Origin: Pontibacter sp. G13
Lineage (GTDB): Bacteria > Bacteroidota > Bacteroidia > J057
Length of the DNA stretch: 64,000 nt
Direction of reading: 5' to 3'
Assembly: GCF_031851795.1 (NCBI RefSeq)
Contig: NZ_CP134696.1
Coordinates: forward strand, 6,076,001-6,140,000
Shown here in pieces: positions 5,151 to 62,301 of the stretch. A program made the translations under genes and the position numbers. The notes under the pieces were generated by a model, which searched no databases, was not told the DNA's origin, and saw only the letters and a list, made by a program, of their open reading frames with translations. Every line of letters begins with the position of its first letter. The stretch's first letter is position 1.

Positions 5151-6911
5151 ATGATCACACGATCCATGCCTTTTTCCGCCATGAGGGGACTACCAATCCG
5201 TCTATTTCGGGGCTTTTTTCCGCTGATGATGTTGGCCATTTTGCCGCAATTTGGCTGGGCCTCCTACAACATTGATAGCCTGCTGGCTACGCTGGACACC
5301 ATGCCTGAAAATCAGCAACGAGTCAGGACCTATCTCGATTTGGCCAGGGGATATGAGCTGATCGATCTGGAAGCTTCCTTCGATTGGCTGGATAAAATGG
5401 AAGCTCTGGCGATGGAGCTCGAGGATATGGATGGCTTGAGGCGGGTCCATAAAGAACGAGGGATTTTGCAGAAACTTCATGGTTCTCCTGACAGTGCCCT
5501 GTACTGGTTTCAGCTGATTGCCGAGCATCCCGAATGGCTTTTGACTACGAGGGATAGTGCCGATACCGAAAATTTGCTGGGAATGGGATTCTTGGATCTG
5601 GGGCAATTGGACACGGCGATTTATCATCTGAACCGAGCGGCAGCAGGATATCGGAAAATCGAATATCTCGAAGGAGAGATCACTATTTTCACCAACATCG
5701 GAATCATTTTCTATGAGACGGGAGATTTGGAGCAGGCGCTTCATTTCCTCAAAAAAGCTTATCAGCTTTCACTCAAGGCAGAAAATCTGTTTGCACATTT
5801 CCCCGTGATCTCCAATTATGCAAGCTTGTTGGTTTCAACGGGCTCGGATACAGATTCGGTACAGGCGATGTTCCTCGAATTGGAAGCGCATCCAGACTTG
5901 GAGAATGACCCGAATATGGCCCGTACCCTTCACCAGAATATTGCCAGCCTGTATACCAGACAAGGCGATTGGGCATTGGCAGAACAGCACTATTTCAAGG
6001 CCCTCAAAATTGCTGAACAAGGACAAGTGCCCGAATTACCGCAGATTTATACGGGACTTGCGATGAACTACTACGGGCAAGGCAAATACACCAACAGTAT
6101 CCAATATGAACGCAAGGCTCAGCAGCTTGCCTCGCTGCCATCGGAGTTTAAGTGGACGTACCAATCCCTCGCAAAATCATTCACTCAACTCGGCCAAAAA
6201 GATAGCGCACTCCACTATTGGGACCGGCTCCTGCAATTAAGGGACTCCATGGAATCGGAACGGCACAAGGAATTGATGGCTGAAGCGCAGGAGAATCTTA
6301 CCGTAGTGGAAAAAGAATACGAGATCAAGGAACTCCAACAGCAGCGAGCGCTCGATCAGTTGAGCAAGCGCGTGAGCTATCTGGCTATCGTGGTATTGGT
6401 ACTGATGTTGGCTTTGGGAGGGTACATGGCGTGGACCGTCATTCGCAGGAAAAAGGAAGAGACTCTCCTGCAGCAAGCCAAACTCAAGCAGAAAAACGAG
6501 CATCTTGTCAACCTCTCCCTCAGCATTCATCAGAAGAATCAAGTGCTGCGATCTTTTGAAGACAAGCTCAAGGCCCAGCGCGAAAAGGGCGGAGATTCGC
6601 AACTCCTCACGGACCTGTCCAAGAGTCTGACTCAATTCCTCAAAATCGACGAAGACTGGGAGAGGTTCGAGGCCTATTTCCACGATCTCAATCATGGGTT
6701 CTATGATATTCTCAAGGAGCGCTGGCCCAATCTCACCAATCAAGAATTGCGAATTTGCACCCTCGCCAAGCTTCGTTTCAATATCAAGGAAATGGCCCAA
6801 ACCCTGTTCATTTCTGTTGACTCGGTCAAATCTTCTCGATACCGCATTCGCAAGAAACTCGCCATCGAAACGGAACAGGATTTATCCGACTTCCTCAACG
6901 AGCTAGTCTAG
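5151..6911 (+). CDS. TPR-containing transmembrane regulator with LuxR-type HTH
   Basis: About 586 residues from the ATG at 5151; in-frame ATGs at 5166 and 5181 are equally plausible, and 5181 gives the cleanest signal peptide (MRGLPIRLFRGFFPLMMLAI). Periplasmic TPR-like helices fill residues ~45-370 (GMGFLDLGQLDTAIYHLNRA, IGIIFYETGDLEQALHFLKK, ASLYTRQGDWALAEQHYFKA). A coiled coil and one membrane helix follow at ~408-430 (YLAIVVLVLMLALGGYMAW), then a second coiled coil. The C-terminal LuxR/GerE-like HTH has ELRICTLAKLRFNIKEMAQT and ends RYRIRKK. The layout implies that an envelope signal is passed directly to DNA. The protein is paralogous to 2-394 and sits upstream of an ELWxxDG T9SS gene, its likely target. 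Confidence 0.9.
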   Translation: MITRSMPFSAMRGLPIRLFRGFFPLMMLAILPQFGWASYNIDSLLATLDTMPENQQRVRTYLDLARGYELIDLEASFDWLDKMEALAMELEDMDGLRRVHKERGILQKLHGSPDSALYWFQLIAEHPEWLLTTRDSADTENLLGMGFLDLGQLDTAIYHLNRAAAGYRKIEYLEGEITIFTNIGIIFYETGDLEQALHFLKKAYQLSLKAENLFAHFPVISNYASLLVSTGSDTDSVQAMFLELEAHPDLENDPNMARTLHQNIASLYTRQGDWALAEQHYFKALKIAEQGQVPELPQIYTGLAMNYYGQGKYTNSIQYERKAQQLASLPSEFKWTYQSLAKSFTQLGQKDSALHYWDRLLQLRDSMESERHKELMAEAQENLTVVEKEYEIKELQQQRALDQLSKRVSYLAIVVLVLMLALGGYMAWTVIRRKKEETLLQQAKLKQKNEHLVNLSLSIHQKNQVLRSFEDKLKAQREKGGDSQLLTDLSKSLTQFLKIDEDWERFEAYFHDLNHGFYDILKERWPNLTNQELRICTLAKLRFNIKEMAQTLFISVDSVKSSRYRIRKKLAIETEQDLSDFLNELV

Positions 6912-28164: not shown

Positions 28165-30650
28165 AGCATCCATTCACGCGCTCAGGAGATCGTCGAGCCT
28201 TACATAGTCAAGGGTTGGAAACCCTCGCCTGTGAGGTGTCGCGCCTACAGCGCTTTCTTTTTGGCTGAGCCGGATTTCGGCCAATCCAATCACGTCATTC
28301 CAGCCTGCCATCAGCCTAGGCCCATGTGTCGGCGGCAGAGGTGGAATCTCCCCGAGCTTGCAAGGCATGCCTGCTCGCTTCTGGCAAAAGACAAGTCCTG
28401 GCATGCACGAGGCATGAGATCCCGCATACTCAGCCATTCTAAACCTCATGTCATCCTGAACGGCCGTAGCCGAGGCTTCAAGCGATGGGGGCCGATTCAG
28501 GATCTGGGCATTCATTCCTCTATAGATTCTGAATAAATCCCCGACACACAGGTCCGCCCTTCAGATTTTTCAGAATGACACAGGGAGGGGGGCTCGGCAT
28601 CCATCCACGCGCTCGGGAGATCGTCGGGCCCTACATAGTCAAGGGTTGGAAACCCTCGCCTGTGAGGTGTCGCGCCTACAGCGCTTTCTTTTTGGCTGAG
28701 CCGGATTTCGGCCAATCCAATCACGTCATTCCAGCCTGCCATCAGCCTAGGCCCATGTGTCGGCGGCAGAGGTGGAATCTCCCCGAGCTTGCAAGGCATG
28801 CCTGCTCGCTTCTGGCAAAAGACAAGTCCTGGCATGCACGAGGCATGAGATCCCGCATGCTCAGCCATTCTACTACCTCATGTCATCCTGAACGGCCGTA
28901 GCCGAGGCTTCAAGCGATCGGGGCCGATTCAGGATCTGGGCATTCATTCCTCTATAGATTCTGAATAAATCCCCGACACACAGGTCCGCCCTTCAGATTT
29001 TTCAGAATGACACAGGGAGGGGGGCTCGGCATCCATCCACGCGCTCGGGAGATCGTCGGGCCCTACATAGTCAAGGGTTGGAAACCCTCGCCTGTGAGGT
29101 GTCGCGCCTACAGCGCTTTCTTTTTGGCTGAGCCGGATTTCGGCCAATCCAATCACGTCATTCCAGCCTGCCATCAGCCTAGGCCCATGTGTCGGCGGCA
29201 GAGGTGGAATCTCCCCGAGCTTGCAAGGCATGCCTGCTCGCTTCTGGCAAAAGACAAGTCCTGGCATGCACGAGGCATGAGATCCCGCATGCTCAGCCAT
29301 TCTACTACCTCATGTCATCCTGAACGGCCGTAGCCGAGGCTTCAAGCGATGGGGGCCGATTCAGGATCTGGGCATTCATTCCTCTTTAGATTCTGAATAA
29401 ATCCCCCGCCCAAAGGCCCGCCCTTCAGATTTTTCAGAATGACACAGGGAGGGGGGCTCGGCATCCATCCACGCGCTCGGGAGATCGTCGGGCCCTACAT
29501 AGTCAAGGGTTGGAAACCCTCGCCTGTGAGGTGTCGCGCCTACAGCGCTTTCTTTTTGGCTGAGCCGGATTTCGGCCAATCCAATCACGTCATTCCAGCC
29601 TGCCATCAGCCTAGGCCCATGTGTCGGCGGCAGAGGTGGAATCTCCCCGAGCTTGCAAGGCATGCCTGCTCGCTTCTGGCAAAAGACAAGTCCTGGCATG
29701 CACGAGGCATGAGATCCCGCATACTCAGCCATTCTAAACCTCATGTCATCCTGAACGGCCGTAGCCGAGGCTTCAAGCGATGGGGGCCGATTCAGGATCT
29801 GGGCATTCATTCCTCTATAGATTCTGAATAAATCCCCGACACACAGGTCCGCCCTTCAGATTTTTCAGAATGACACAGGGAGGGGGGCATGCAATCCAGC
29901 CTAATCATGTCATCCTGAACGGCCATAGCCGAGGCTTCTAGCGATGGGGGCCGATTCAGGATCTGGGCATTCATTCCTCTCTAGATTCTGAATAAATCCC
30001 CCGCCCAAAGGCCCGCCCTTCAGATTTTTCAGAATGACACAGGGAGGGGGGCTCGGCATCCATCCACGCGCTCGGGAGGTCGTCGAGCCTTACATAGTCA
30101 AGGGTTGGAAACCCTCGCCTGTGAGGTGTCGCGCCTACAGCGCTTTCTTTTTGGCTGAGCCGGATTTCGGCCAATCCCATCCCGTCATTCCAGCCTGCCA
30201 TCAGCCTAGGCCCATGTGTCGGCGGCAGAGGTGGAATCTCCCCGAGCTTGCAAGGCATGCCTGCTCGGTCTTGGCAAAAGACAAGTCCTGGCATGCACGA
30301 GGCATGAGATCCCGCATACTCAGCCATTCTAAACCTCATGTCATCCTGAACGGCCGTAGCCGAGGCTTCAAGCGATGGGGGCCGATTCAGGATCTGGGCA
30401 TTCATTCCTCTATAGATTCTGAATAAATCCCCGACACACAGGTCCGCCCTTCAGATTTTTCAGAATGACACAGGGAGGGGTAGCATGCAATCCAGCCTAA
30501 TCATGTCATCCTGAACGGCCATAGCCGAGGCTTCTAGCGATGGGGGCCGATTCAGGATCTGGGCATTCATTCCTCTCTAGATTCTGAATAAATCCCCAAC
30601 GCACAGGTCCGCCCTTCAGATTTTTCAGAATGACACAGGGGGGCGCTCTC
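28165..30650 (+). repeat. composite repeat array 2: ~432-bp units plus extra REP units
   Basis: TACATAGTCAAGGG recurs at 28201, 28632, 29064, 29496, 30091 and 30651, so the first four are spaced 431-432 bp apart. Each unit joins the AGTCAAGGGTTGGAAACCCT element, a ~170-bp segment with GGCATGCCTGC/GGCATGCACGAGGCATG motifs, and one REP unit of the array-1 family (GTCATCCTGAA ... TTCAGAATGAC). Extra REP units without the other segments lie at 29886-30045 and 30484-30640. Units 28632-29063 and 29064-29495 look almost identical, which implies recent amplification or gene conversion. Reading frames repeated on both strands at the unit spacing are by-products of the repeat. No gene is supported between 28081 and 31066. 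Confidence 0.92.
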
Positions 30651-31005
30651 TACATAGTCAAGGGTTGGAAACCCTCGCCTGTGAGGTGTCGCGCCTACAG
30701 CGCTTTCTTTTTGGCTGAGCCGGATTTCGGCTAGTGTGTCGGCCCATTCCCTTTTTGGCTGAGCCGGATTTCGGGCAGTGTGTCGGCCCGTGGGTAATCC
30801 GGCTCCTGCTCAAATGTGCGGCTGGCAGGTGCGGCGATAGGTGCCTGAAGTGGCCGAACTTGGTGAGGCGTCTCCGATCCGTGGGTGGCGATCTCTCGCC
30901 CACGGATCGGAGACCGAGCGCCAGCGAGTACGCAAGGGACCGACCCAGCGGCCATATTGCCCAGAGACATCTCCATGAACCATCCGCTGGGGATCGCCCA
31001 AATCC
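30650..31005 (+). repeat. composite repeat (copy 2) including long hairpin at 30870-30914
   Basis: Same structure as 10240-10660, in the same orientation: the AGTCAAGGGTTGG unit, two partial GAGCCGGATT-type elements (30716-30810), GTGCCTGAAGTGGCCGAACT, the hairpin GTCTCCGATCCGTGGG / CCCACGGATCGGAGAC (30870-30885, 30899-30914), then AAGGGACCGACCCAGCGG and CCGCTGGGGATCGCCCAAAT. The inverted partner is at 40190-40545. Confidence 0.88.
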
Positions 31006-53787: not shown

Positions 53788-54201
53788 ATGAAAAAGTTTT
53801 TCACCCTCTCCATCATCGCTCTGGGAATCTTCACTTCCCAATCTCTTTTCGCTCAATCCACTGAGGATGGCCCTATTGACGACTTGTTGTTCACGCAGCA
53901 CTACTACAAGTGGGGATCCATGCCTGAAGAGCTCAAAGTTGCCGTAACTCCAAGCATTGTTACAGCACCCAACCCAAACACAGAGAACGTATTGAAGGTA
54001 TGGTTTGCCCAGCTTTCCGAAGCAGCTCAATTGGACATCTTCGACATGAACGGCCGTCAGGTTCACGCTGCCGAAATCGGCGGATCTACTCAAGCTGAAG
54101 GTATCCATGTTGTACAAGTGGCTTCCTACACGCCAGGGATGTACTTCGTCCGCATGCGTACGGGATTGTATGAAGTCATTGAAAAAGTAATCATCAAGTA
54201 A
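53788..54201 (+). CDS. minimal T9SS cargo protein
   Basis: 137 residues. The signal peptide is MKKFFTLSIIALGIFTSQSL (then FAQS). Only ~30 residues (TEDGPIDDLLFTQHYYKWGS) separate it from the T9SS-type C-terminal domain: APNPNTENVLKVWF, LDIFDMNGRQVHAAE, TPGMYFVRMRT and EKVIIK. The protein is thus little more than an export signal plus a sorting domain. It could be a small surface peptide, a competitor for the secretion machinery, or a deleted remnant, though its promoter and terminator suggest active expression. Its terminator region is related to 59363-59431. Confidence 0.88.
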   Translation: MKKFFTLSIIALGIFTSQSLFAQSTEDGPIDDLLFTQHYYKWGSMPEELKVAVTPSIVTAPNPNTENVLKVWFAQLSEAAQLDIFDMNGRQVHAAEIGGSTQAEGIHVVQVASYTPGMYFVRMRTGLYEVIEKVIIK

Positions 54202-54202
54202 G

Positions 54203-54270
54203 GCACTTGATCACATGAATAAACAGACCTCGGGACTGACCGTTCCGGTTACAGATTCCATCTACCTAAA
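54203..54270 (+). repeat. left copy of a ~68-bp direct repeat flanking the AT-rich block
   Basis: GCACTTGATCACATGAATAA begins this copy, followed by CTCGGGACTGACCGTTCCGG. It matches 59363-59431 with roughly eight differences. It lies directly after the stop codon of the minimal T9SS gene. Confidence 0.8.
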
Positions 54271-54310
54271 CAAGAGTCATCCCGAATTTTCGGGTTGGCT
54301 CTTGTTTTTT
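54271..54310 (+). terminator. terminator of the minimal T9SS gene
   Basis: CAAGAGTCATCCCGA (54271-54285) pairs imperfectly with TCGGGTTGGCTCTTG (54290-54304), followed by six T. Beyond it, 54311-54566 holds a degenerate GAGCCGGATT-type element (54322-54361) and no gene. Confidence 0.8.
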
Positions 54311-54566
54311 ATGTAGCATGGTCGGGAGCCGGATTAGCTTCCGGACGAACTCCAGCTCAGCGCAAGCTAGAAAAGCATAATATGAAACCACCTTGTCAAG
54401 TGGAACGCCCATTTAAGGGATCTCAACTTCTCATGCAGAGACAAGGGGTTTAACGAGCACTGCTGAGACCGCTCGTGAACAGTCGGGGCCAATGGCTGGC
54501 AAATGAGGGTGGAAATCCAAGACAGGCAAATCGATTACAGTAAGAGAAGCAAACGGAATAAAGACC

Positions 54567-55007
54567 ATGAGAATTTTATTGACATGTATTATGAGTTTGA
54601 TCTTGTTTTCCGCTTTTGGCCAAAAGCCAAGGTCTATGGTTATTGAATACAATTTCGATGCTGTAGGCAGGCAATGGTGCGATGAAACAGAGATCTCCAT
54701 TCAAAATAGGAGCAGTTGTATGTTTGAGCTTCATGATTCTCTCTTTGTAAAGAATCGGTTCTTTTTATTCAGTGCAGAAAACCAAATAGATTCTGTTTGC
54801 CACTATAGGAATCCTATGGGAGTCAAATGCTTTTCCGAAGAAGAATACAGAAGCCTATTTCCTTCTGATTCAATACCTTTCACGAGTATTGACTTGGTAA
54901 AAAATGAACATGGGGTTTATTTAGGAGACTCTCTTTTTCTAATTTCTAAGATTAGTGATGATTTGTTCTCTTTTGGACAGAATAGACTATTGCTTTTTTT
55001 AGAGTAA
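54567..55007 (+). CDS. hypothetical secreted protein (AT-rich block)
   Basis: 146 residues. The signal peptide is MRILLTCIMSLILFSAFGQ. The mature part has VIEYNFDAVGRQWCDETEIS and two further cysteines (SSCMFEL, DSVCHYR), with no domain I recognise. Codon use is AT-rich, unlike the flanking T9SS and valS genes. It is the first of five orphan genes in the 54.5-59.1 kb block. The next gene starts 115 bp downstream. By context it could be an orphan immunity-type protein; nothing in the sequence proves this. Confidence 0.72.
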   Translation: MRILLTCIMSLILFSAFGQKPRSMVIEYNFDAVGRQWCDETEISIQNRSSCMFELHDSLFVKNRFFLFSAENQIDSVCHYRNPMGVKCFSEEEYRSLFPSDSIPFTSIDLVKNEHGVYLGDSLFLISKISDDLFSFGQNRLLLFLE

Positions 55008-55122
55008 ATGAGAGCGTTTCAGGCTGCTAACTTCTCTCTAATATGGATCGCACAGTATGCAACCTTGGGGGAAGGATCAATAAAATTTGGGCGTGTAAGT
55101 CTTCAAATAAATAGATGTCAAC

Positions 55123-55584
55123 ATGTTTTTCAAAAGAAGAGAAAACGAATTGCTAGAAGCTCACTCGAAAATTGGTTTTCCAAAAATTCCTCGAAGAGAA
55201 CAATGCAGGATGATACTTAGAAATGATTTTTCACCAATTTCGAAATTAACTCCTATTGGAAAATGTGATCGGGATTTATTGAATTATTATTTCAACATAA
55301 GTTACCGTGATTTGGCAGAATATATTCTCGATATAGGGTACTTGGATAAGTGCTTTCTAAAGGAAGAAGTAAGAGCGGATGGGGTTTGGATACTCAGAAA
55401 TGAAACCGGTAGCTTCGAAATTTTGGATCAAGAAAGAGGGAATTCTAACCGAACTCTATGCGCTACCTTATTTGATGTAGCTATATACTACTCGCGAATA
55501 AATCTTAATTACATTCCAAAATATTTTGAGAATGATTTTGGAATAGACGTGCGTCCAAATCTCTATTCCTATGAAGCTGGTTAA
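55123..55584 (+). CDS. hypothetical cytoplasmic protein (AT-rich block)
   Basis: 153 residues (MFFKRRENELLEAHSKIGFP). No signal peptide or membrane helix. Mixed alpha/beta character, with LLNYYFNISYRDLAEYILDI, EEVRADGVWILRNETGSFEI and a C-terminal YFENDFGIDVRPNLYSYEAG. I do not recognise the family. The WILRNETGSFEILDQERG stretch looks like a small beta unit found in immunity-like proteins, but this is impression only. It is AT-rich and probably shares a transcript with the preceding gene. Confidence 0.72.
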   Translation: MFFKRRENELLEAHSKIGFPKIPRREQCRMILRNDFSPISKLTPIGKCDRDLLNYYFNISYRDLAEYILDIGYLDKCFLKEEVRADGVWILRNETGSFEILDQERGNSNRTLCATLFDVAIYYSRINLNYIPKYFENDFGIDVRPNLYSYEAG

Positions 55585-55675
55585 TGTTTTTGACCGAAAA
55601 TGAAAAGGTCATAGGTTTGGTATATTTCTAAAGAAAGGGGAATGTTCATAGAGCTGTGTCAACCCCTCCTTGAGG

Positions 55676-55905
55676 GAATGTTCAGAAAAGTGTGTCAACC
55701 GCTCCTTGAACGTTGGGCTTGAAAATGGTCCCACAGGCAGCTTCACTATCTGAAAACCCGAATCTGACCCTCATTGAAACCAGATCTGGACTTTTCCTTT
55801 GTAGCATGGTCGGGCATTGGAAATACCCGCTTGTGGTCTTTCGACCCTACAGGACTTGCAACTTGTTGGGTGGGAGCGGGATTGTCCACGGGCCTGTGCA
55901 ATGGC
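55676..55905 (+). repeat. ~230-bp direct repeat, copy 1 of 3
   Basis: It begins GGAATGTTCAGAAAAGTGTG at 55676 (a partial duplicate start, GGAATGTTCATAGAGCTGTG, is at 55639). It continues with CCCGAATCTGACCCTCATTG and GTAGCATGGTCGGGCATTGG. Copies 2 and 3 are at 57053-57285 and 57489-57690. The rest of 55585-56394 is gene-free and holds a GAGCCGGATT-type element (~56060-56110). Confidence 0.85.
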
Positions 55906-56394
55906 CGAAATGCGGCCCGGTCGAAAGGGGGCTGGGCCGACCACACATAACTCCTTGGCGATCTCCCCTTGGTGCCAGTCAAGCTCGGGGAGATTCCGGA
56001 TAGGACCCCGACGCGCGGGCCTTGACGGATGCCCTTTCGGAATGACGCGGTTTGTTGGGCAGGAGCCGGATTACGCACGGGCCAATCCACCTGCCGAAAT
56101 CCACCTCAGTCCATTTGAAATGTGCAGCTGGCCTGCGGCGGCGATAGGGATGGGAGGGGAGAGCCGTTAGGCGAGGTCCGAGTATAATACTCCCCGAAAA
56201 TCAGACCCCAGATTAAAAGTTTACGAAAACAATTATCTTGTATGAAGATGAAACAATCTCGCAGGAAAATCGACCGTTTCTTCGAAGCTCCCGAGAAAGG
56301 AGAGAGACTAGGCTGATTGAATCGGCTGATTTGAATCTGAAGCTTGAATAATATCAAACCAAAAAATTCATCCTGAGTCGCTAATATTTACATA

Positions 56395-57048
56395 ATGAGG
56401 ATAGTAGCAAAAATCATATTATTTACAATAAGCCTGAATGGATTGTTTGCACAGTCTGGGGAATTTATTGATTCTTTGAAAGCAGTTACAAGTAATTCTA
56501 TCATTGTTTTGGAAGATAATTGTATTGGTTGTATCGTGATGGACTCTCCTTGTGAAACGTATTCAAATAGCGGAAATCCAAAAAATAAGTATGTGATTTG
56601 GAAAAACGAAAAGGGGTACCATATAAAGAAATTTAATGTCTGTGGAGGTTCTAAAACTGTGAATTTTAAAAAATGGAAGAATGACCCTTTTGGCATTATT
56701 TCATCCAGATCCATGGAAATTGATACTACATCTTTAAAATATCCCCTCTCACTAAATAGAAAAGACTCGACATGGTTCGAAACAGGAATAAACCACTATA
56801 AATATTATCATTTTCAATTTCTGACTGACTCGATAAGTGAGATAACTATTAAGGATTATGCATTTAGAGAGAAAAATGAAGAAGATGATGTTTGGGAACT
56901 AACGGATGTTGAGTTCCAAAAAAATCGAAGCAGATATGAGTTTAATAACTCAACAGCAATAAAGGAGTTACTTGACTGTCTCATTTCAGCTTTTAATAAG
57001 AACTACAAACAATTAAAGGTAATTCCGATCAAGGGTATTAATCACTGA
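56395..57048 (+). CDS. hypothetical secreted protein (AT-rich block)
   Basis: 217 residues. The signal peptide is MRIVAKIILFTISLNGLFAQ. Features: a cysteine cluster CIGCIVMDSPC near 43-53, KKFNVCGGSKTVNFKKWKND, and a C-terminal helix AIKELLDCLISAFNKNYKQL. No known domain is seen. The gene is strongly AT-rich compared with its surroundings, which argues for horizontal acquisition. It lies between copies 1 and 2 of a ~230-bp direct repeat, like a small cassette. Function unknown. Confidence 0.75.
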   Translation: MRIVAKIILFTISLNGLFAQSGEFIDSLKAVTSNSIIVLEDNCIGCIVMDSPCETYSNSGNPKNKYVIWKNEKGYHIKKFNVCGGSKTVNFKKWKNDPFGIISSRSMEIDTTSLKYPLSLNRKDSTWFETGINHYKYYHFQFLTDSISEITIKDYAFREKNEEDDVWELTDVEFQKNRSRYEFNNSTAIKELLDCLISAFNKNYKQLKVIPIKGINH

Positions 57049-57052
57049 AAAA

Positions 57053-57285
57053 GGGAATGTTCAGAAAAGTGTGTCAACTCCTCCTCGAATATGGTGCCTA
57101 GAAATCATCCTTACAGACAGCTTTACCCCCTAAAAACCCGAATCTGACCCTCATCGAAACCAGATCCGGACTTTTCCTTTGTAGCATGGTCGGGCATTGC
57201 AAATACCCGCTTGTGATCTTTCGTCCCTACAGGACTTGCAACTTGGTGGGCGGGGACGGGATTGCCCATGGGCCGGTGCAATGGG
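57053..57285 (+). repeat. ~230-bp direct repeat, copy 2 of 3
   Basis: GGAATGTTCAGAAAAGTGTG at 57054, then CCCGAATCTGACCCTCATCG and GTAGCATGGTCGGGCATTGC. It begins 5 bp after the stop of the preceding gene and runs directly into an Rhs fragment. Confidence 0.85.
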
Positions 57286-57363
57286 CAGCTGGATGGGTAT
57301 CGGTATTGGTTCCAGGGGCAGGAGACGGATGATGAGGTGTATGGGAAGGGGAATCCACACATT
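57283..57363 (+). pseudogene. remnant of an Rhs repeat-associated core domain
   Basis: The frame from 57283 reads GQLDGYRYWFQGQETDDEVY then GKGN, matching the YRYGFQGQExDDEVxGEGN segment that opens the conserved Rhs-associated core of Bacteroidota Rhs proteins. The normal continuation (NYKYRMHDPRxGRF) is missing and a stop follows within a few codons. A second open fragment in another frame (~57358-57489; FSVAYGPENQQLTW) is of unknown origin. This shows that an rhs gene once occupied the locus. Confidence 0.7.
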
Positions 57364-57488
57364 GCAAGGACATCCTGATGCAGGTACAAATACTTTTTCT
57401 GTGGCCTATGGTCCTGAAAATCAGCAATTAACTTGGAGTACCCAAAATGCTTCAAGGACCAATGACTTCTTCTCTCAAGGCATTGTAG

Positions 57489-57690
57489 GGGAATGTTCAG
57501 AAAAGTGTGTCAACTCCTCCTCGAATATGGCGCCTAGAAATCATCCTGTCAGACAGCTTCACCACCAAAAAACCCGAATCTGACCCTCATCGAAACCAGA
57601 TCCGGACATTTCCTATGCCGCATGGTCGGGCATTGCAAATATCCGCTTGTGGTCTTTCGTCCCTACAGGACTTGCAACTTGGTGGGTGGG
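57489..57690 (+). repeat. ~200-bp direct repeat, copy 3 of 3
   Basis: GGAATGTTCAGAAAAGTGTG at 57490, then the same core as copies 1 and 2 (CCCGAATCTGACCCTCATCG, GCATGGTCGGGCATTGC). It stops at a sharp boundary where the transposase remnant begins. Confidence 0.85.
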
Positions 57691-57692
57691 AG

Positions 57693-57779
57693 CATCTCAA
57701 GGAAGGTGTCATGGACTGGTGGCAGATATACAACTACATCAGACCCCATAGTTTACAGGGATACAAAACCCCCGAATGA
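57693..57779 (+). pseudogene. remnant of an IS3/IS481-type transposase C-terminus
   Basis: The frame reads HLKEGVMDWWQIYNYIRPHS then LQGYKTPE and a stop. It matches the end of the integrase-core (rve_3) region, where YNxxRPHSALGYxTP is typical. Everything upstream of this segment has been replaced by the repeat copy at 57489-57690, so the gene is dead. Confidence 0.75.
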
Positions 57780-57916
57780 ATTGATCGAATCTGTGAAAAA
57801 TTATACTTTCCGGTGGTTGTGGCTTAGGGGAATCGGACAGCCCTATGGGGCCAGAACCCTGTTTCAAGCTGCTAGCACAGGTAATCTAACACTCCCGATC
57901 TAATCCATAAATTGAT

Positions 57917-58498
57917 ATGAAACTATCTCTTTTTCCAGTGCTAGGGATATTGTCCTTACTTTTATTGAAAGTTATCCCAACCTATGCTCAGGTTGAAAAC
58001 TGGGAGGACAAGTTAGAAAGAAGAATCCAAGAAGAAGGGTTGAATTCCTCTTCTAGAGATTCAACCCCTTTTGGGGTTTGGATTCACGTCTGCAGATATT
58101 ACATACGGCATGAAGTCGTTGAAACGGAGCCATATAGAGGTCATTTGATTGGAAAGTATGAACAGGGAAAGAAAAATGGTTTATGGAAATATTACTATAA
58201 GGAAACATTGATTGCTGAAGTTCCATACCTGAACGGATGGATTCATGGAAACCTCGTTTTCTATAAGGAATCTAAGAAACATGAAGTGTTTCTTGTTCAG
58301 CAAGGAGAAATCCTCGAGATCCTACTATATGACCATCAAAAATGTATCGGCGAGTACCAATGTAGAAACTCTGAAGTCTCAGAAATAATATTCGAACATG
58401 ATACCCTCCGCGCCACAAGAAAATATAGAATAGGGGATGACCCTTGTTTTATGCTTCGGGATTTTTGCATGGATGGATGGCGAGAAAAAGGCTATTGA
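57917..58498 (+). CDS. secreted MORN/YwqK-like repeat protein (AT-rich block)
   Basis: 193 residues. The signal peptide is MKLSLFPVLGILSLLLLKVI (then PTYAQ). A MORN-like unit is visible at ~78-110 (IGKYEQGKKNGLWKYYYKET, then NGWIHGNLVFY), similar to YwqK-family antitoxin and immunity proteins. The remaining part has no recognisable domain (CMDGWREKGY at the end). In Bacteroidota such proteins are common next to Rhs and polymorphic-toxin genes, and an Rhs fragment lies 550 bp upstream. An immunity role is thus plausible but inferred. Confidence 0.75.
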   Translation: MKLSLFPVLGILSLLLLKVIPTYAQVENWEDKLERRIQEEGLNSSSRDSTPFGVWIHVCRYYIRHEVVETEPYRGHLIGKYEQGKKNGLWKYYYKETLIAEVPYLNGWIHGNLVFYKESKKHEVFLVQQGEILEILLYDHQKCIGEYQCRNSEVSEIIFEHDTLRATRKYRIGDDPCFMLRDFCMDGWREKGY

Positions 58499-58649
58499 TG
58501 CTGGGAGATAGTTGAATAGGGGAGTGTTTGATTAACAGTCTCGCCCAGTAGATGGGGTTCACCAAACCCAATCCCTCAGTGGTCCGATTTTTGAAAGAGT
58601 TATAAAATTGCTAATTACATAAATTGGTGAAATATACTAAAAATCGTAT

Positions 58650-59138
58650 ATGACTGAAAATCGCAAATTAACTCTTGCTGCAGTGGTTATGGGACTTGCC
58701 ATTGTAGGTTACATAATTGCCATGTCAATTAGAATGAAGAAATGGCAAAGCTATCTAAATTCACCAGACAGAATCATTACCACAGTTACTGTTTATGACT
58801 ACGTAAGTAACAAGGGATCGTACTATTATTACTATTATGTTTACAAAGCCTTTGGTGATTTTTATTTTGAGAAGACCACAGGTCGAAATATTTCAAGAAA
58901 CAAACTGGATAAAGGGGAACCTCAAACTTTTGTTGCAGTCGTTTCGGGTAAGGACCCTACTATTCATTGCATACTTTGGAATCGAAAATTTAAACAAGAA
59001 AACATACTAGGAGTAGAACTAAATCTCGATGTAGACTCTACCGTTATTAGATATTACACCCGCGGTATAGGACTTTCTCCTAGAGGATCTATTGATCCAG
59101 AACTATTAAAGGAAATTGAAGGTCGTGTAAAGATGTAG
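58650..59138 (+). CDS. hypothetical membrane-anchored protein (AT-rich block)
   Basis: 162 residues. One N-terminal membrane helix (LAAVVMGLAIVGYIIAMSIR) anchors a small domain with SYYYYYYVYKAFGDFYFEKT, VVSGKDPTIHCILWNRKF and DVDSTVIRYYTRGIGLS. It is AT-rich and matches nothing I recognise. The type (one TM helix plus a small beta-rich domain with a YYYYY strand) is common among Bacteroidota orphan genes near Rhs loci. Confidence 0.72.
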   Translation: MTENRKLTLAAVVMGLAIVGYIIAMSIRMKKWQSYLNSPDRIITTVTVYDYVSNKGSYYYYYYVYKAFGDFYFEKTTGRNISRNKLDKGEPQTFVAVVSGKDPTIHCILWNRKFKQENILGVELNLDVDSTVIRYYTRGIGLSPRGSIDPELLKEIEGRVKM

Positions 59139-59362
59139 CAACCCACCAATTCTTAAAGTGAATGTGCAGATTTGGTATCTCTCAGCCCTGCGGGTGCCCA
59201 ACCTGCGACTCCCATTGTTGCAAGTGTGAGATCCCGTATACATTTCTCGGCGCACAGGTGCCATCGCGGCGAAATTTTATGGGATGAGGGGGTTGATTAG
59301 GCAGGAGCCGGATTGCCCACGGGCCGGCGCACTGGCCGAAATGCGCCTCAGCCAAAGGGAAT

Positions 59363-59431
59363 GCGCTTGATCACATGAATACACAGCCCTCGGGACTGAC
59401 CATTCCGGTAACAGATTCCAACCACCCAAAA
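59363..59431 (+). repeat. right copy of the direct repeat flanking the AT-rich block
   Basis: GCGCTTGATCACATGAATAC begins this copy, followed by CTCGGGACTGACCATTCCGG. It corresponds to 54203-54270. A GAGCCGGATT-type element (59296-59353) lies just upstream. The rest of 59139-59670 has no gene. Confidence 0.8.
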
Positions 59432-59467
59432 CTGGGCCCTCGCAAGTGCGGCCCAGTTTTGGTTTTT
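59426..59467 (+). terminator. Rho-independent terminator
   Basis: A perfect 13-bp stem CCAAAACTGGGCC (59426-59438) / GGCCCAGTTTTGG (59450-59462), followed by five T. A second hairpin, GGCCTGAATC / GATTCAGGCC, is at 59471-59492. No gene ends close by, so this terminator may be left over from a gene copy. Confidence 0.85.
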
Positions 59468-59670: not shown

Positions 59671-62301
59671 ATGGCAATTTCCACAACGTATTCTCCCGCC
59701 GAGATTGAGGAGAAATGGTATGAAGCATGGATGGCAGCCCAAGTATTCAAGTCCACTCCAGATGAGCGGCCTGCCTACACCATCACCATTCCCCCACCGA
59801 ATGTGACAGGTATTCTGCACATGGGGCACATCCTCAACAACACCATTCAGGATATCCTCATCCGTCGCAAGCGGATGCAGGGATTCAATGCATGCTGGGT
59901 GCCCGGTACCGACCACGCATCCATTGCCACTGAAGCCAAGGTGGTGAAGATGTTGGCCGATCAGGGAATTGCCAAAAACGACCTTTCCCGGGAAGAATTC
60001 CTCAAGCACGCCTTCGAATGGAAGGAAAAGTACGGAGGAATCATCCTGAGCCAGCTCCGCAAATTGGGCGCCTCATGTGATTGGGACCGGACTAACTTCA
60101 CCATGAATGAGGACTACTCCAAGGAGGTCATTCAGGTGTTTTGCGATCTGTACGAAAAAGGATTCATCTACCGGGGATACCGGATGGTGAACTGGGACCC
60201 AAGTGCCCAAACTGCTGTTTCCGATGAGGAGGTGTATCACAAGGATACCGATGGCAATCTGTACCATGTGAAGTACCCGATCGCAGGAGATCCGGATTCC
60301 TTTGTCATCATCGCCACCACCCGTCCAGAGACAATCTTGGCAGATGCTGCTGTAGCCATTAATCCAGAAGATGAGCGCTATAAGCATCTTCATGGGAAGA
60401 AGGTCATCGTACCATTGGTCAATCGCGAGGTGCCGATCATCTTGGATGACTACGTAGATCTGGAATTCGGGACAGGTTGCCTGAAGGTGACCCCGGCGCA
60501 TGATGTCAATGACTATGAGATCGGACAGCGTCACGAGTTGCCGATCATCAATGCCATGAATCCAGATGGGACCATCTCCGAAGCTGGAGAGCTCTACATC
60601 GGAATGGATCGATTTGCCGTGCGTAAGCAAATCGTCCGGGACCTGAAGGAAGCTGGCTTGATGGAGAAGATCGAGCAATACCGCCATGCCGTCGGTCATT
60701 CCGAGCGTACGGATGCGGTGATCGAGCCCCGATTGTCCGAGCAGTGGTTCCTGAATATGCAGGACATCTCCAAGCCTGCCCTCAAGGCGGTCGTCGAGGG
60801 AGAGGTCAACCTGATTCCCGGCAAGTTTGTGAACACCTACCGTCACTGGATGGAGAATGTCCGTGACTGGTGTCTCTCGCGTCAGTTGTGGTGGGGCCAT
60901 CGGATCCCGGCGTACTATATCGCAGGGACCAATGACCATGTCGTAGCGCCAACTGATGAGGAAGCGTTGGCCAAAGCGAAAGCCAAGACTGGTAATGACG
61001 CACTGACGATGGCGGATCTGCGCCAAGATGAGGATGTGCTCGATACTTGGGCTTCTAGCTGGTTGTGGCCAATTTCCGTATTCAAGGGAATCAGCGAACC
61101 GGACAATCCAGACATCAATTACTACTATCCCACCAATGACCTCGTGACAGCACCGGAAATTCTGTTTTTCTGGGTTGCGCGGATGATCATTGCGGGGTAT
61201 CAATATCGTGGCGAAAAGCCATTCAACAATGTATACCTGACCGGAATCGTCCGGGACGACAAGCGTCGCAAGATGTCCAAGTCCCTCGGCAACTCTCCGG
61301 ACCCGCTGGATCTCATCGACCAGTATGGAGCGGATTCTATCCGGGTCGGGATGTTGTTTGCTTCTCCCGCGGGGAATGACTTGCTGTACAAGGAAGATCT
61401 CATCGTTCAGGGGAGTAAGTTTGCCAACAAGATCTGGAACGCATTCCGATTGATCAAAGGTTGGGAAACGACCGATGCTCCTGCTAGCGAAAAGGATCGT
61501 CTGGCGATGGCATGGGTCGCTGAACGAATCGAAGAGGTGAAAGCTGAGATTCAGGATCACTTCGACAAATTCCGGATCAGCGATGCACTGATGAGTGTAT
61601 ACAAATTGATCTGGGACGACTTCTGCTCCTGGTTCCTTGAGATGATCAAGCCGCCATACGGTGAGCCAGCTTCTCAGGAAACGGTAGACGGTTCCATCAA
61701 ACTCTTCGGGGAACTGCTGAAGATCTTGCATCCATTCATGCCGTTCATCACCGAGGAACTCTGGCATGAATTGAAGGAGCGCGGTGAAGGTGAATTCCTG
61801 ACGGTGACACAAATGGCGGATGCTCGCCCAGCGGATCGCGCCATCTTGGATCAGATGGAATTGATCAAGGAGGTCGTCAGTGGAGTCCGGAACTTCAAGG
61901 CTGAAAAGCAGATGCCCAAGCATGATCCGATCGAGTTGTTCATCAATACCAAGGAGCAGCCGATCTTCGAGAAACATTCCGGGTTGCTGGAGAAGCTTTT
62001 GATCACTTCGAATATCTCCTTTGTGACTGAAAAGGTGGATGGCACCGGTTCCTTGCGTGTACAGGCGCATGAATTCTACATCCCATTGGTGGGCGTGGAT
62101 CTCGATGCCGAGAAGGAGAAAATCCAGAAGGAGATCGAGTACACAGAAGGATTCTTGCAGAAAGTTGTGAAGAAATTGAGCAATGAGCGCTTTGTCCAGA
62201 ATGCCCCCGAGCAGGTGGTTGGGCTTGAGCGTAAGAAGCAGGCAGATGCGGAAGCCAAGCTGGAAGTCCTGAAAAAGGCGTTGACAGAATTGGGCGCATA
62301 A
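59671..62301 (+). CDS. valS: valine--tRNA ligase
   Basis: 876 residues. The class I synthetase HIGH motif is PPNVTGILHMGHILNNTIQD near residue 48. The CP1 editing domain follows (TTRPETILADAAVAINPED, FGTGCLKVTPAHDVNDYEIG). KMSKS is at DDKRRKMSKSLGNSPDPLDL near 530. The anticodon-binding domain and a C-terminal coiled coil (VDLDAEKEKIQKEIEYTEGF, LGA end) complete a normal-length enzyme. It charges tRNA-Val and edits Thr-tRNA-Val. Start is the ATG at 59671. It ends at a perfect hairpin with TTTT. Confidence 0.97.
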   Translation: MAISTTYSPAEIEEKWYEAWMAAQVFKSTPDERPAYTITIPPPNVTGILHMGHILNNTIQDILIRRKRMQGFNACWVPGTDHASIATEAKVVKMLADQGIAKNDLSREEFLKHAFEWKEKYGGIILSQLRKLGASCDWDRTNFTMNEDYSKEVIQVFCDLYEKGFIYRGYRMVNWDPSAQTAVSDEEVYHKDTDGNLYHVKYPIAGDPDSFVIIATTRPETILADAAVAINPEDERYKHLHGKKVIVPLVNREVPIILDDYVDLEFGTGCLKVTPAHDVNDYEIGQRHELPIINAMNPDGTISEAGELYIGMDRFAVRKQIVRDLKEAGLMEKIEQYRHAVGHSERTDAVIEPRLSEQWFLNMQDISKPALKAVVEGEVNLIPGKFVNTYRHWMENVRDWCLSRQLWWGHRIPAYYIAGTNDHVVAPTDEEALAKAKAKTGNDALTMADLRQDEDVLDTWASSWLWPISVFKGISEPDNPDINYYYPTNDLVTAPEILFFWVARMIIAGYQYRGEKPFNNVYLTGIVRDDKRRKMSKSLGNSPDPLDLIDQYGADSIRVGMLFASPAGNDLLYKEDLIVQGSKFANKIWNAFRLIKGWETTDAPASEKDRLAMAWVAERIEEVKAEIQDHFDKFRISDALMSVYKLIWDDFCSWFLEMIKPPYGEPASQETVDGSIKLFGELLKILHPFMPFITEELWHELKERGEGEFLTVTQMADARPADRAILDQMELIKEVVSGVRNFKAEKQMPKHDPIELFINTKEQPIFEKHSGLLEKLLITSNISFVTEKVDGTGSLRVQAHEFYIPLVGVDLDAEKEKIQKEIEYTEGFLQKVVKKLSNERFVQNAPEQVVGLERKKQADAEAKLEVLKKALTELGA

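Follow-up and report, generated by a model that had tools for sequence, protein, structure and literature searches.

Orphan immunity arrays are already known, and the mode by which genes are added to them is an open question. Published cases that suggest growth by displacement include the orphan toxin-immunity modules of Rhs and contact-dependent inhibition (CDI) systems (PMC3150448), and in the type VI secretion system (T6SS) orphan immunity arrays of Vibrio cholerae, older immunity genes are retained after effector displacement, with recombination that uses no specific sites (PMC5361080). In Bacteroidales, recombinase-associated acquired interbacterial defence (rAID) clusters have a tyrosine recombinase as their defining feature, and the mechanism by which these clusters arise is, according to their authors, not yet clear (PMC12247911). 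Here we analyse a block of five AT-rich orphan genes in Pontibacter sp. G13, contained in a 64,000-nucleotide stretch (the window; C1:6076001-6140000) of a 7.67-Mb genome in three contigs. The block lies between a gene for a small protein of the type IX secretion system (T9SS) sorting type and valS, and probably represents a small decaying island of orphan immunity-type genes, linked to Rhs loci, which was inserted between the two.

Open reading frames (ORFs) were called mechanically, genome-wide counts derive from searches of the genome sequence, and gene names given without a cited search reflect general knowledge. The comparison set comprised 12 other genomes of the family, all from other genera, the genus itself being represented by one genome. 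Orphan proteins were searched for families in Pfam, NCBIfam and PADLOC.

A compositionally foreign block between a T9SS gene and valS

The block, its flanking genes and the repeats that bracket it are as follows (positions within the window):

53788..54201, + strand: small T9SS-sorted protein gene, 137 aa, left flank (TIGR04183 E 1.5e-10, PF18962 E 1.3e-9)
54200..54270, + strand: 71-bp direct repeat copy 1, in the T9SS 3' untranslated region (UTR), beginning at the T9SS stop codon
54268..54311, + strand: intrinsic terminator after copy 1, 12-bp plus 5-bp stem, then a U run
54567..55007, + strand: orphan gene 1, 146 aa, signal-peptide-like start; GC 0.349, no Pfam, NCBIfam or PADLOC family
55123..55584, + strand: orphan gene 2, 153 aa; GC 0.344, no convincing family
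56395..57048, + strand: orphan gene 3, 217 aa, signal-peptide-like start; GC 0.320, no family
57917..58498, + strand: orphan gene 4, 193 aa, signal-peptide-like start; GC 0.388, no family above cut-off
58650..59138, + strand: orphan gene 5, 162 aa, one N-terminal membrane segment predicted by eye; GC 0.360, no family
59360..59430, + strand: 71-bp direct repeat copy 2, 62/71 to copy 1
59426..59462, + strand: intrinsic terminator after copy 2, unlike the copy-1 terminator in sequence
59671..62301, + strand: right-flank gene, which we take from its sequence to be valS, valyl-tRNA synthetase; 62-72% identical full-length genes in sister genera

All five genes lie on the + strand and have a GC content of 0.32-0.39 (under 41% in every case), compared with 0.516 +/- 0.029 for 31 other ORFs of the window (z -4.3 to -6.7), and their codon usage falls at or under the bottom of the window range. 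A preliminary description of this DNA had noted five AT-rich genes at these starts, without recognisable families and flanked by genes of balanced GC; both observations held, the rest of the window being at ~52% GC and none of the five proteins yielding a convincing match in Pfam, NCBIfam or PADLOC. Weak matches of gene 2 to Phi29_MCP (E 0.03) and of gene 4 to the LIC20035 adhesin (E 0.002, far under its cut-off, perhaps reflecting MORN-like repeats) led to no assignment. Single-sequence structure predictions of proteins 2 and 4 (predicted local distance difference test scores, pLDDT, of 40 and 41) were too poor to use, and a plasmid search found no homologues of proteins 2, 4 and 5.

A T9SS gene directly before valS is the common state in this family. 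Six genomes, one from each of six other genera, have 145-520 bp between the two genes (G005, 145 bp; G009, 209; G010, 520; G002, 202; G007, about 170; and G004, 154, where the T9SS match is weak at E 0.07), compared with 5470 bp here, and behind each of these T9SS genes lies a short 3' region of its own, in most cases with a hairpin resembling a terminator. Three further genomes of the family showed no T9SS gene in front of valS. Because the T9SS gene sits so close to valS in the sister genera, the block appears to have been gained in this lineage, multiple losses elsewhere being the less likely alternative. The earlier proposal of a horizontally acquired island at the T9SS 3' end is thus supported as regards insertion and foreign composition, by the GC content of the genes and by junctions that lack the block in six genera; the 71-bp sequence is not recognisable at those junctions, nor in the other family genomes by sequence search at genus distance.

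Direct repeats of about 68 bp with some eight differences had also been reported to bracket the block. Their bounds can now be set at 54200-54270 and 59360-59430, with 62 of 71 positions identical (9 differences; 87%) and the next best ungapped match in the window reaching 35/71. Each copy ends at the base of its own intrinsic terminator. Rather than being scattered over T9SS genes, the repeat was found by genome search in these two copies only; a third match, C1:3332959-3333003 (L003), covers only the terminator adjoining copy 1, at 82% identity. The repeat was also considered as an RNA element, and was kept as a 3' UTR since it matched no Rfam family, even at a relaxed threshold, and has only the two copies.

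The divergence of the copies, with a different terminator after each, argues for local duplication or mosaic recombination, in which the T9SS 3' end was duplicated or brought from a relative and foreign genes gathered stepwise between the copies; the mosaic content of the block (repeats, Rhs pieces, and remains of mobile elements of two kinds) points the same way. However, no second T9SS coding remnant precedes copy 2, where a dispersed repeat, E, is found instead, and we give this account a real but minority chance. An integrase-type island, with the repeats as attL and attR, the T9SS 3' end as target and an integrase later lost, we regard as unlikely. The flanking direct repeats expected of such an island are present, bracket the whole foreign block from the T9SS stop codon onwards and have no further copies in the genome, and sister genera have empty sites; but neither ORF inspection nor family searches revealed an integrase within the island, and the only tyrosine recombinase genes of the genome lie far off, at C1:546951, 4297351 and 6800 kb, none of them at an array of the kind described below. 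With no integrase, and with copies only 87% identical, the repeat may have served as target or as recombination substrate, or may be a by-product of the insertion, and the earlier proposal is supported in part only.

Repeats and Rhs fragments inside the island

Between the five genes lie repeats headed by a 25-bp sequence, GGGAATGTTCAGAAAAGTGTGTCAA, hereafter site A, together with insertion sequence (IS) and Rhs remnants. A2 denotes a variant of site A, and REP stands for repetitive extragenic palindromic:

55638..55662, + strand: site A after gene 2, imperfect, 4 mismatches
55674..55698, + strand: site A after gene 2, perfect by sequence match, IS256-type terminal repeat
55673..55904, + strand: mosaic internal repeat unit 1, site A plus leader with REP-like part; 86% to 57049-57284
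56113..56182, + strand: 70-bp fragment, 96% identical over its 70 bp to sequence that follows site A in locus L035
57053..57077, + strand: site A, perfect by sequence match, directly after gene 3, 5 bp past its stop
57053..57254, + strand: mosaic internal repeat unit 2, 94% to unit 3
57280..57354, + strand: Rhs core fragment (NGQLDGYRYWFQGQETDDEVYGKGN), 92% over 25 aa to the L035 Rhs core on contig C2
57489..57513, + strand: site A, perfect by sequence match
57489..57690, + strand: mosaic internal repeat unit 3, 94% to unit 2
57690..57773, + strand: transposase tail, rve_3, IS3-like (PF13683 E 2e-5, NF033516 E 0.004)
57873..57896, - strand: A2-type site, inverted, one of 3 exceptions among 57
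58520..58543, + strand: A2-type site after gene 4, 4 mismatches to A2
59281..59355, + strand: dispersed E repeat adjoining copy 2, with more copies in the window and other loci

Sequence matches thus recovered the Rhs fragment, the transposase end and the three internal direct repeats of the preliminary description. The repeats are 202 bp each (starting at 55673, 57053 and 57489; 73-94% identical) and are copies of a larger mosaic unit; the count of three holds for these units, but their 25-bp head occurs four times, once in imperfect form. They belong to a genome-wide set: parts of the mosaic unit give 64 matches across the genome, with the head (site A) and the REP-like middle dispersed separately. 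In L035, on contig C2, the counterpart of the 70-bp fragment immediately precedes a truncated Rhs core. An intact IS3 element behind the rve_3 tail was rejected, as a genome search found no other full copy.

Also observed were further copies of the dispersed repeats. Pieces of E recur on the minus strand at window positions 28261-30809, four of them at about 431-bp spacing, and the REP-like repeat C forms tandem-like clusters at L039:1220-2271 (~116 bp spacing), L041:4696-5191 (~53 bp in part) and L042:3714-6184. A REP-associated tyrosine transposase (NF047646) at L089:18325-18861 may account for the dispersal of the REP-like C and E repeats.

Site A matches an IS256 end and follows the direction of the arrays

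Over its 25 bp, site A is identical to the left end of an IS256 element, intact and 1500 bp long, in the Saprospiraceae genome UBA6168; the element has a transposase that matches NF033543 (E 3e-107), the right end GAGACTGTTTTAAAAAGTGTGTCAA, and flanks that read as an 8-bp target duplication, GCGCAATG. In the GTDB collection, the exact 23-nt core of site A is shared by five further genomes, of which four are labelled Saprospiraceae and one Bacteroidetes, so that the organism is Saprospiraceae-like. Within the genome of the window, 29 places carry this core with at most 3 mismatches, compared with 0 for the reversed pattern, and the other 12 family genomes contain no site A, bar three variant copies in one. 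Site A was not found in viral contigs, and no mention of its 18-nt core was found in the literature. At L088:7187, a long inverted repeat with about 22 bp per arm lies right past site A.

The variants A2 and A3 may likewise be IS256-type ends, given their similarity to site A and to the UBA6168 right end. When A, A2, A3 and the UBA6168 right end were searched with up to 6 mismatches, using site sets defined post hoc on data already seen, 54 sites ran along their array and 3 were opposed, over 12 loci, two of which (L037 and L134) adjoin each other and form part of a single larger array; reversed control patterns gave 0 matches. Furthermore, ORFs of 90 aa or more that run in the direction of the site end within 120 bp upstream of 23 of the 32 A sites (median 41 bp), compared with 11.9% of random positions on the same strand; the binomial p of 5e-15 is generous, as sites within an array are not independent of each other. 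When A contexts are compared, similarity sets in abruptly at the first G's of the site and as a rule stops short of the upstream gene; downstream it reaches 200-490 bp in closer pairs, in several cases up to the next gene. These leaders are mostly 80-94% identical within an array, and between arrays they often share only site A plus tens of bases.

Paired terminal inverted repeats, as in IS256 or in miniature inverted-repeat transposable elements (MITEs), were not seen, and Transposase_mut (PF00872), the IS256 transposase, is absent from the genome of the window. With almost no inverted partners and no transposase, an ordinary IS256 element or MITE was rejected. Unlike these lone ends, A-type ends in both orientations occur on a MITE-like element of 233 bp in another Bacteroidetes genome, SAP1 (L125:285-517).

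Sister arrays with Rhs modules and defence genes

The regions around A sites are arrays of AT-rich genes that mostly run in one direction, and the five orphan genes of the window are part of this wider, genome-wide pattern of bordered arrays; the border types of the island recur, with unchanged orientation, in about ten further arrays. Of the 11 Rhs core domains in the genome, five belong to arrays bordered by site A: one in L034, two in L035 and two in L039. In L034 and L035, tip-like ORFs are accompanied by small AT-rich ORFs, and on contig C2 (L035) a long Rhs protein precedes an AT-rich ORF and site A, after which come a truncated Rhs core whose tail is new, a further AT-rich ORF and a second site A. 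C2 itself is a plasmid-like contig of 43 kb with a ParA-like ORF, on which the long Rhs gene and an orphan Rhs tip are both found with site A. A further Rhs array, L089, has the A3 variant as its border and carries one immunity-like gene in repeated copies.

Other array genes encode a SUKH protein (L037), Roc-COR-CHAT, a reverse transcriptase, GajA/GajB and an OLD-like nuclease, and for most no family was found. The Gabija-like GajA/GajB pair, at L135:6146-9726, is flanked by border-type sites at 5545 and 9858.

A probable small decayed member of the arrays

By its sequence, the window island can be placed among these arrays as a small, decayed one: it contains two Rhs-locus fragments, genes 2 and 3 are each followed by site A and gene 4 by an A2-type site, and gene 4 itself is a paralogue (34%) of L039:16814-17359 in an Rhs array. 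Several observations weigh against a decaying island of immunity-type genes, besides the non-independence of sites noted above. No recognised immunity domain was found in any of the five proteins, so that they are putative immunity proteins by association only. No complete toxin tip is left in the island, where Rhs is present as fragments only. Gene 1 is followed by no border site and gene 5 only by the E repeat and the 71-bp copy. Lastly, arrays elsewhere in the genome include genes that are not defence-like, encoding a PhoD-like phosphatase, an OpuAC protein and an AAT-like hydrolase.

Under the immunity-island reading, the five genes would protect the cell from Rhs-type or similar toxins of related bacteria. 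Modules may have been joined successively at a common 3' border, and their toxin parts may then have decayed while immunity genes were kept, as neighbours still carry the toxin; this sequence of events is suggested by the anatomy of the island and by the V. cholerae and CDI/Rhs cases. Arrays could recombine with one another through the homology of their common border and leader sequences. Growth by displacement of this kind is the most likely history of the island and its sister arrays.

Movement of single ends by a transposase acting in trans is possible, and no transposase or target duplication backs it here. In a broader form, which we put forward tentatively and think rather unlikely, the arrays would be an integrase-free, integron-like cassette system that gathers defence and immunity genes head to tail behind a single IS256-type end, the border being moved by transposase in trans or by border-border recombination, with the window island as a small decayed member. 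The stricter version, that A sites are left ends of one-ended or trans-mobilised IS256 products with leader plus gene as the cassette, is more doubtful still. It is favoured by the match to the left end of an element that is intact and flanked by an 8-bp target duplication, and by the sharp left border, variable right end and strict co-orientation of the sites; yet the genome has no Transposase_mut gene, no target duplication is shown for the arrays, and recombination between leaders accounts for array growth equally well. The least probable account is ordinary debris, left in AT-rich junk by old insertions of IS256 or MITEs that played no part in gene acquisition. The IS ends, the IS3-like tail and the REP-like repeats are all present, but decay of paired elements should leave both orientations, and the sites are biased 54 to 3 and lie just past stop codons.

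Comparison with known systems

The recurrent, oriented border is the unusual part of this locus, and hints at an unusual stacking of defence genes. One border type links Rhs toxin-immunity modules, anti-phage systems and orphan genes, and because the border shared by about a dozen arrays is short and precise, has a fixed orientation and comes from a known kind of transposon, the question of how genes are added becomes testable here. We found no published account of lone IS ends in immunity arrays, in a search that left most subscription papers outside its reach.

Among mobile elements, IS256 and MITEs are similar in that site A equals the left end of the UBA6168 element and a MITE-like pair exists in another genome; here, however, single ends occur, co-oriented with genes in a genome without the transposase. 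Chromosomal integrons also hold arrays of co-oriented, mostly unknown genes spaced by related repeats, but were rejected as a model: no integron integrase lies near the arrays, and site A is not attC-like, folding worse than its shuffles (z +1.1).

The rAID clusters resemble the arrays in their co-oriented short genes under 41% GC, in a conserved intergenic sequence (here site A plus its leader) and in putative orphan immunity content, including the one SUKH protein of L037. Unlike rAID, no tyrosine recombinase stands beside any array, the shared intergenic sequence opens with an IS256-type end, and anti-phage systems are also present; the arrays may work like rAID clusters but are not classed with them, because the defining recombinase was searched for and not found. 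As in the V. cholerae T6SS arrays, putative older immunity genes have been kept here, whereas a fixed 25-bp border recurs only in the present case.

L034, L035, L039 and L089 match the orphan modules of Rhs and CDI systems, in that truncated Rhs cores bearing new tails are stacked there with small AT-rich ORFs behind them. Modules start with full Rhs cores in the sister arrays and with fragments in the window, and differ from the published modules in that each ends in a fixed, lone IS-type end. Of the systems compared, these Rhs orphan module arrays come closest to the island, which has a border of a new kind.

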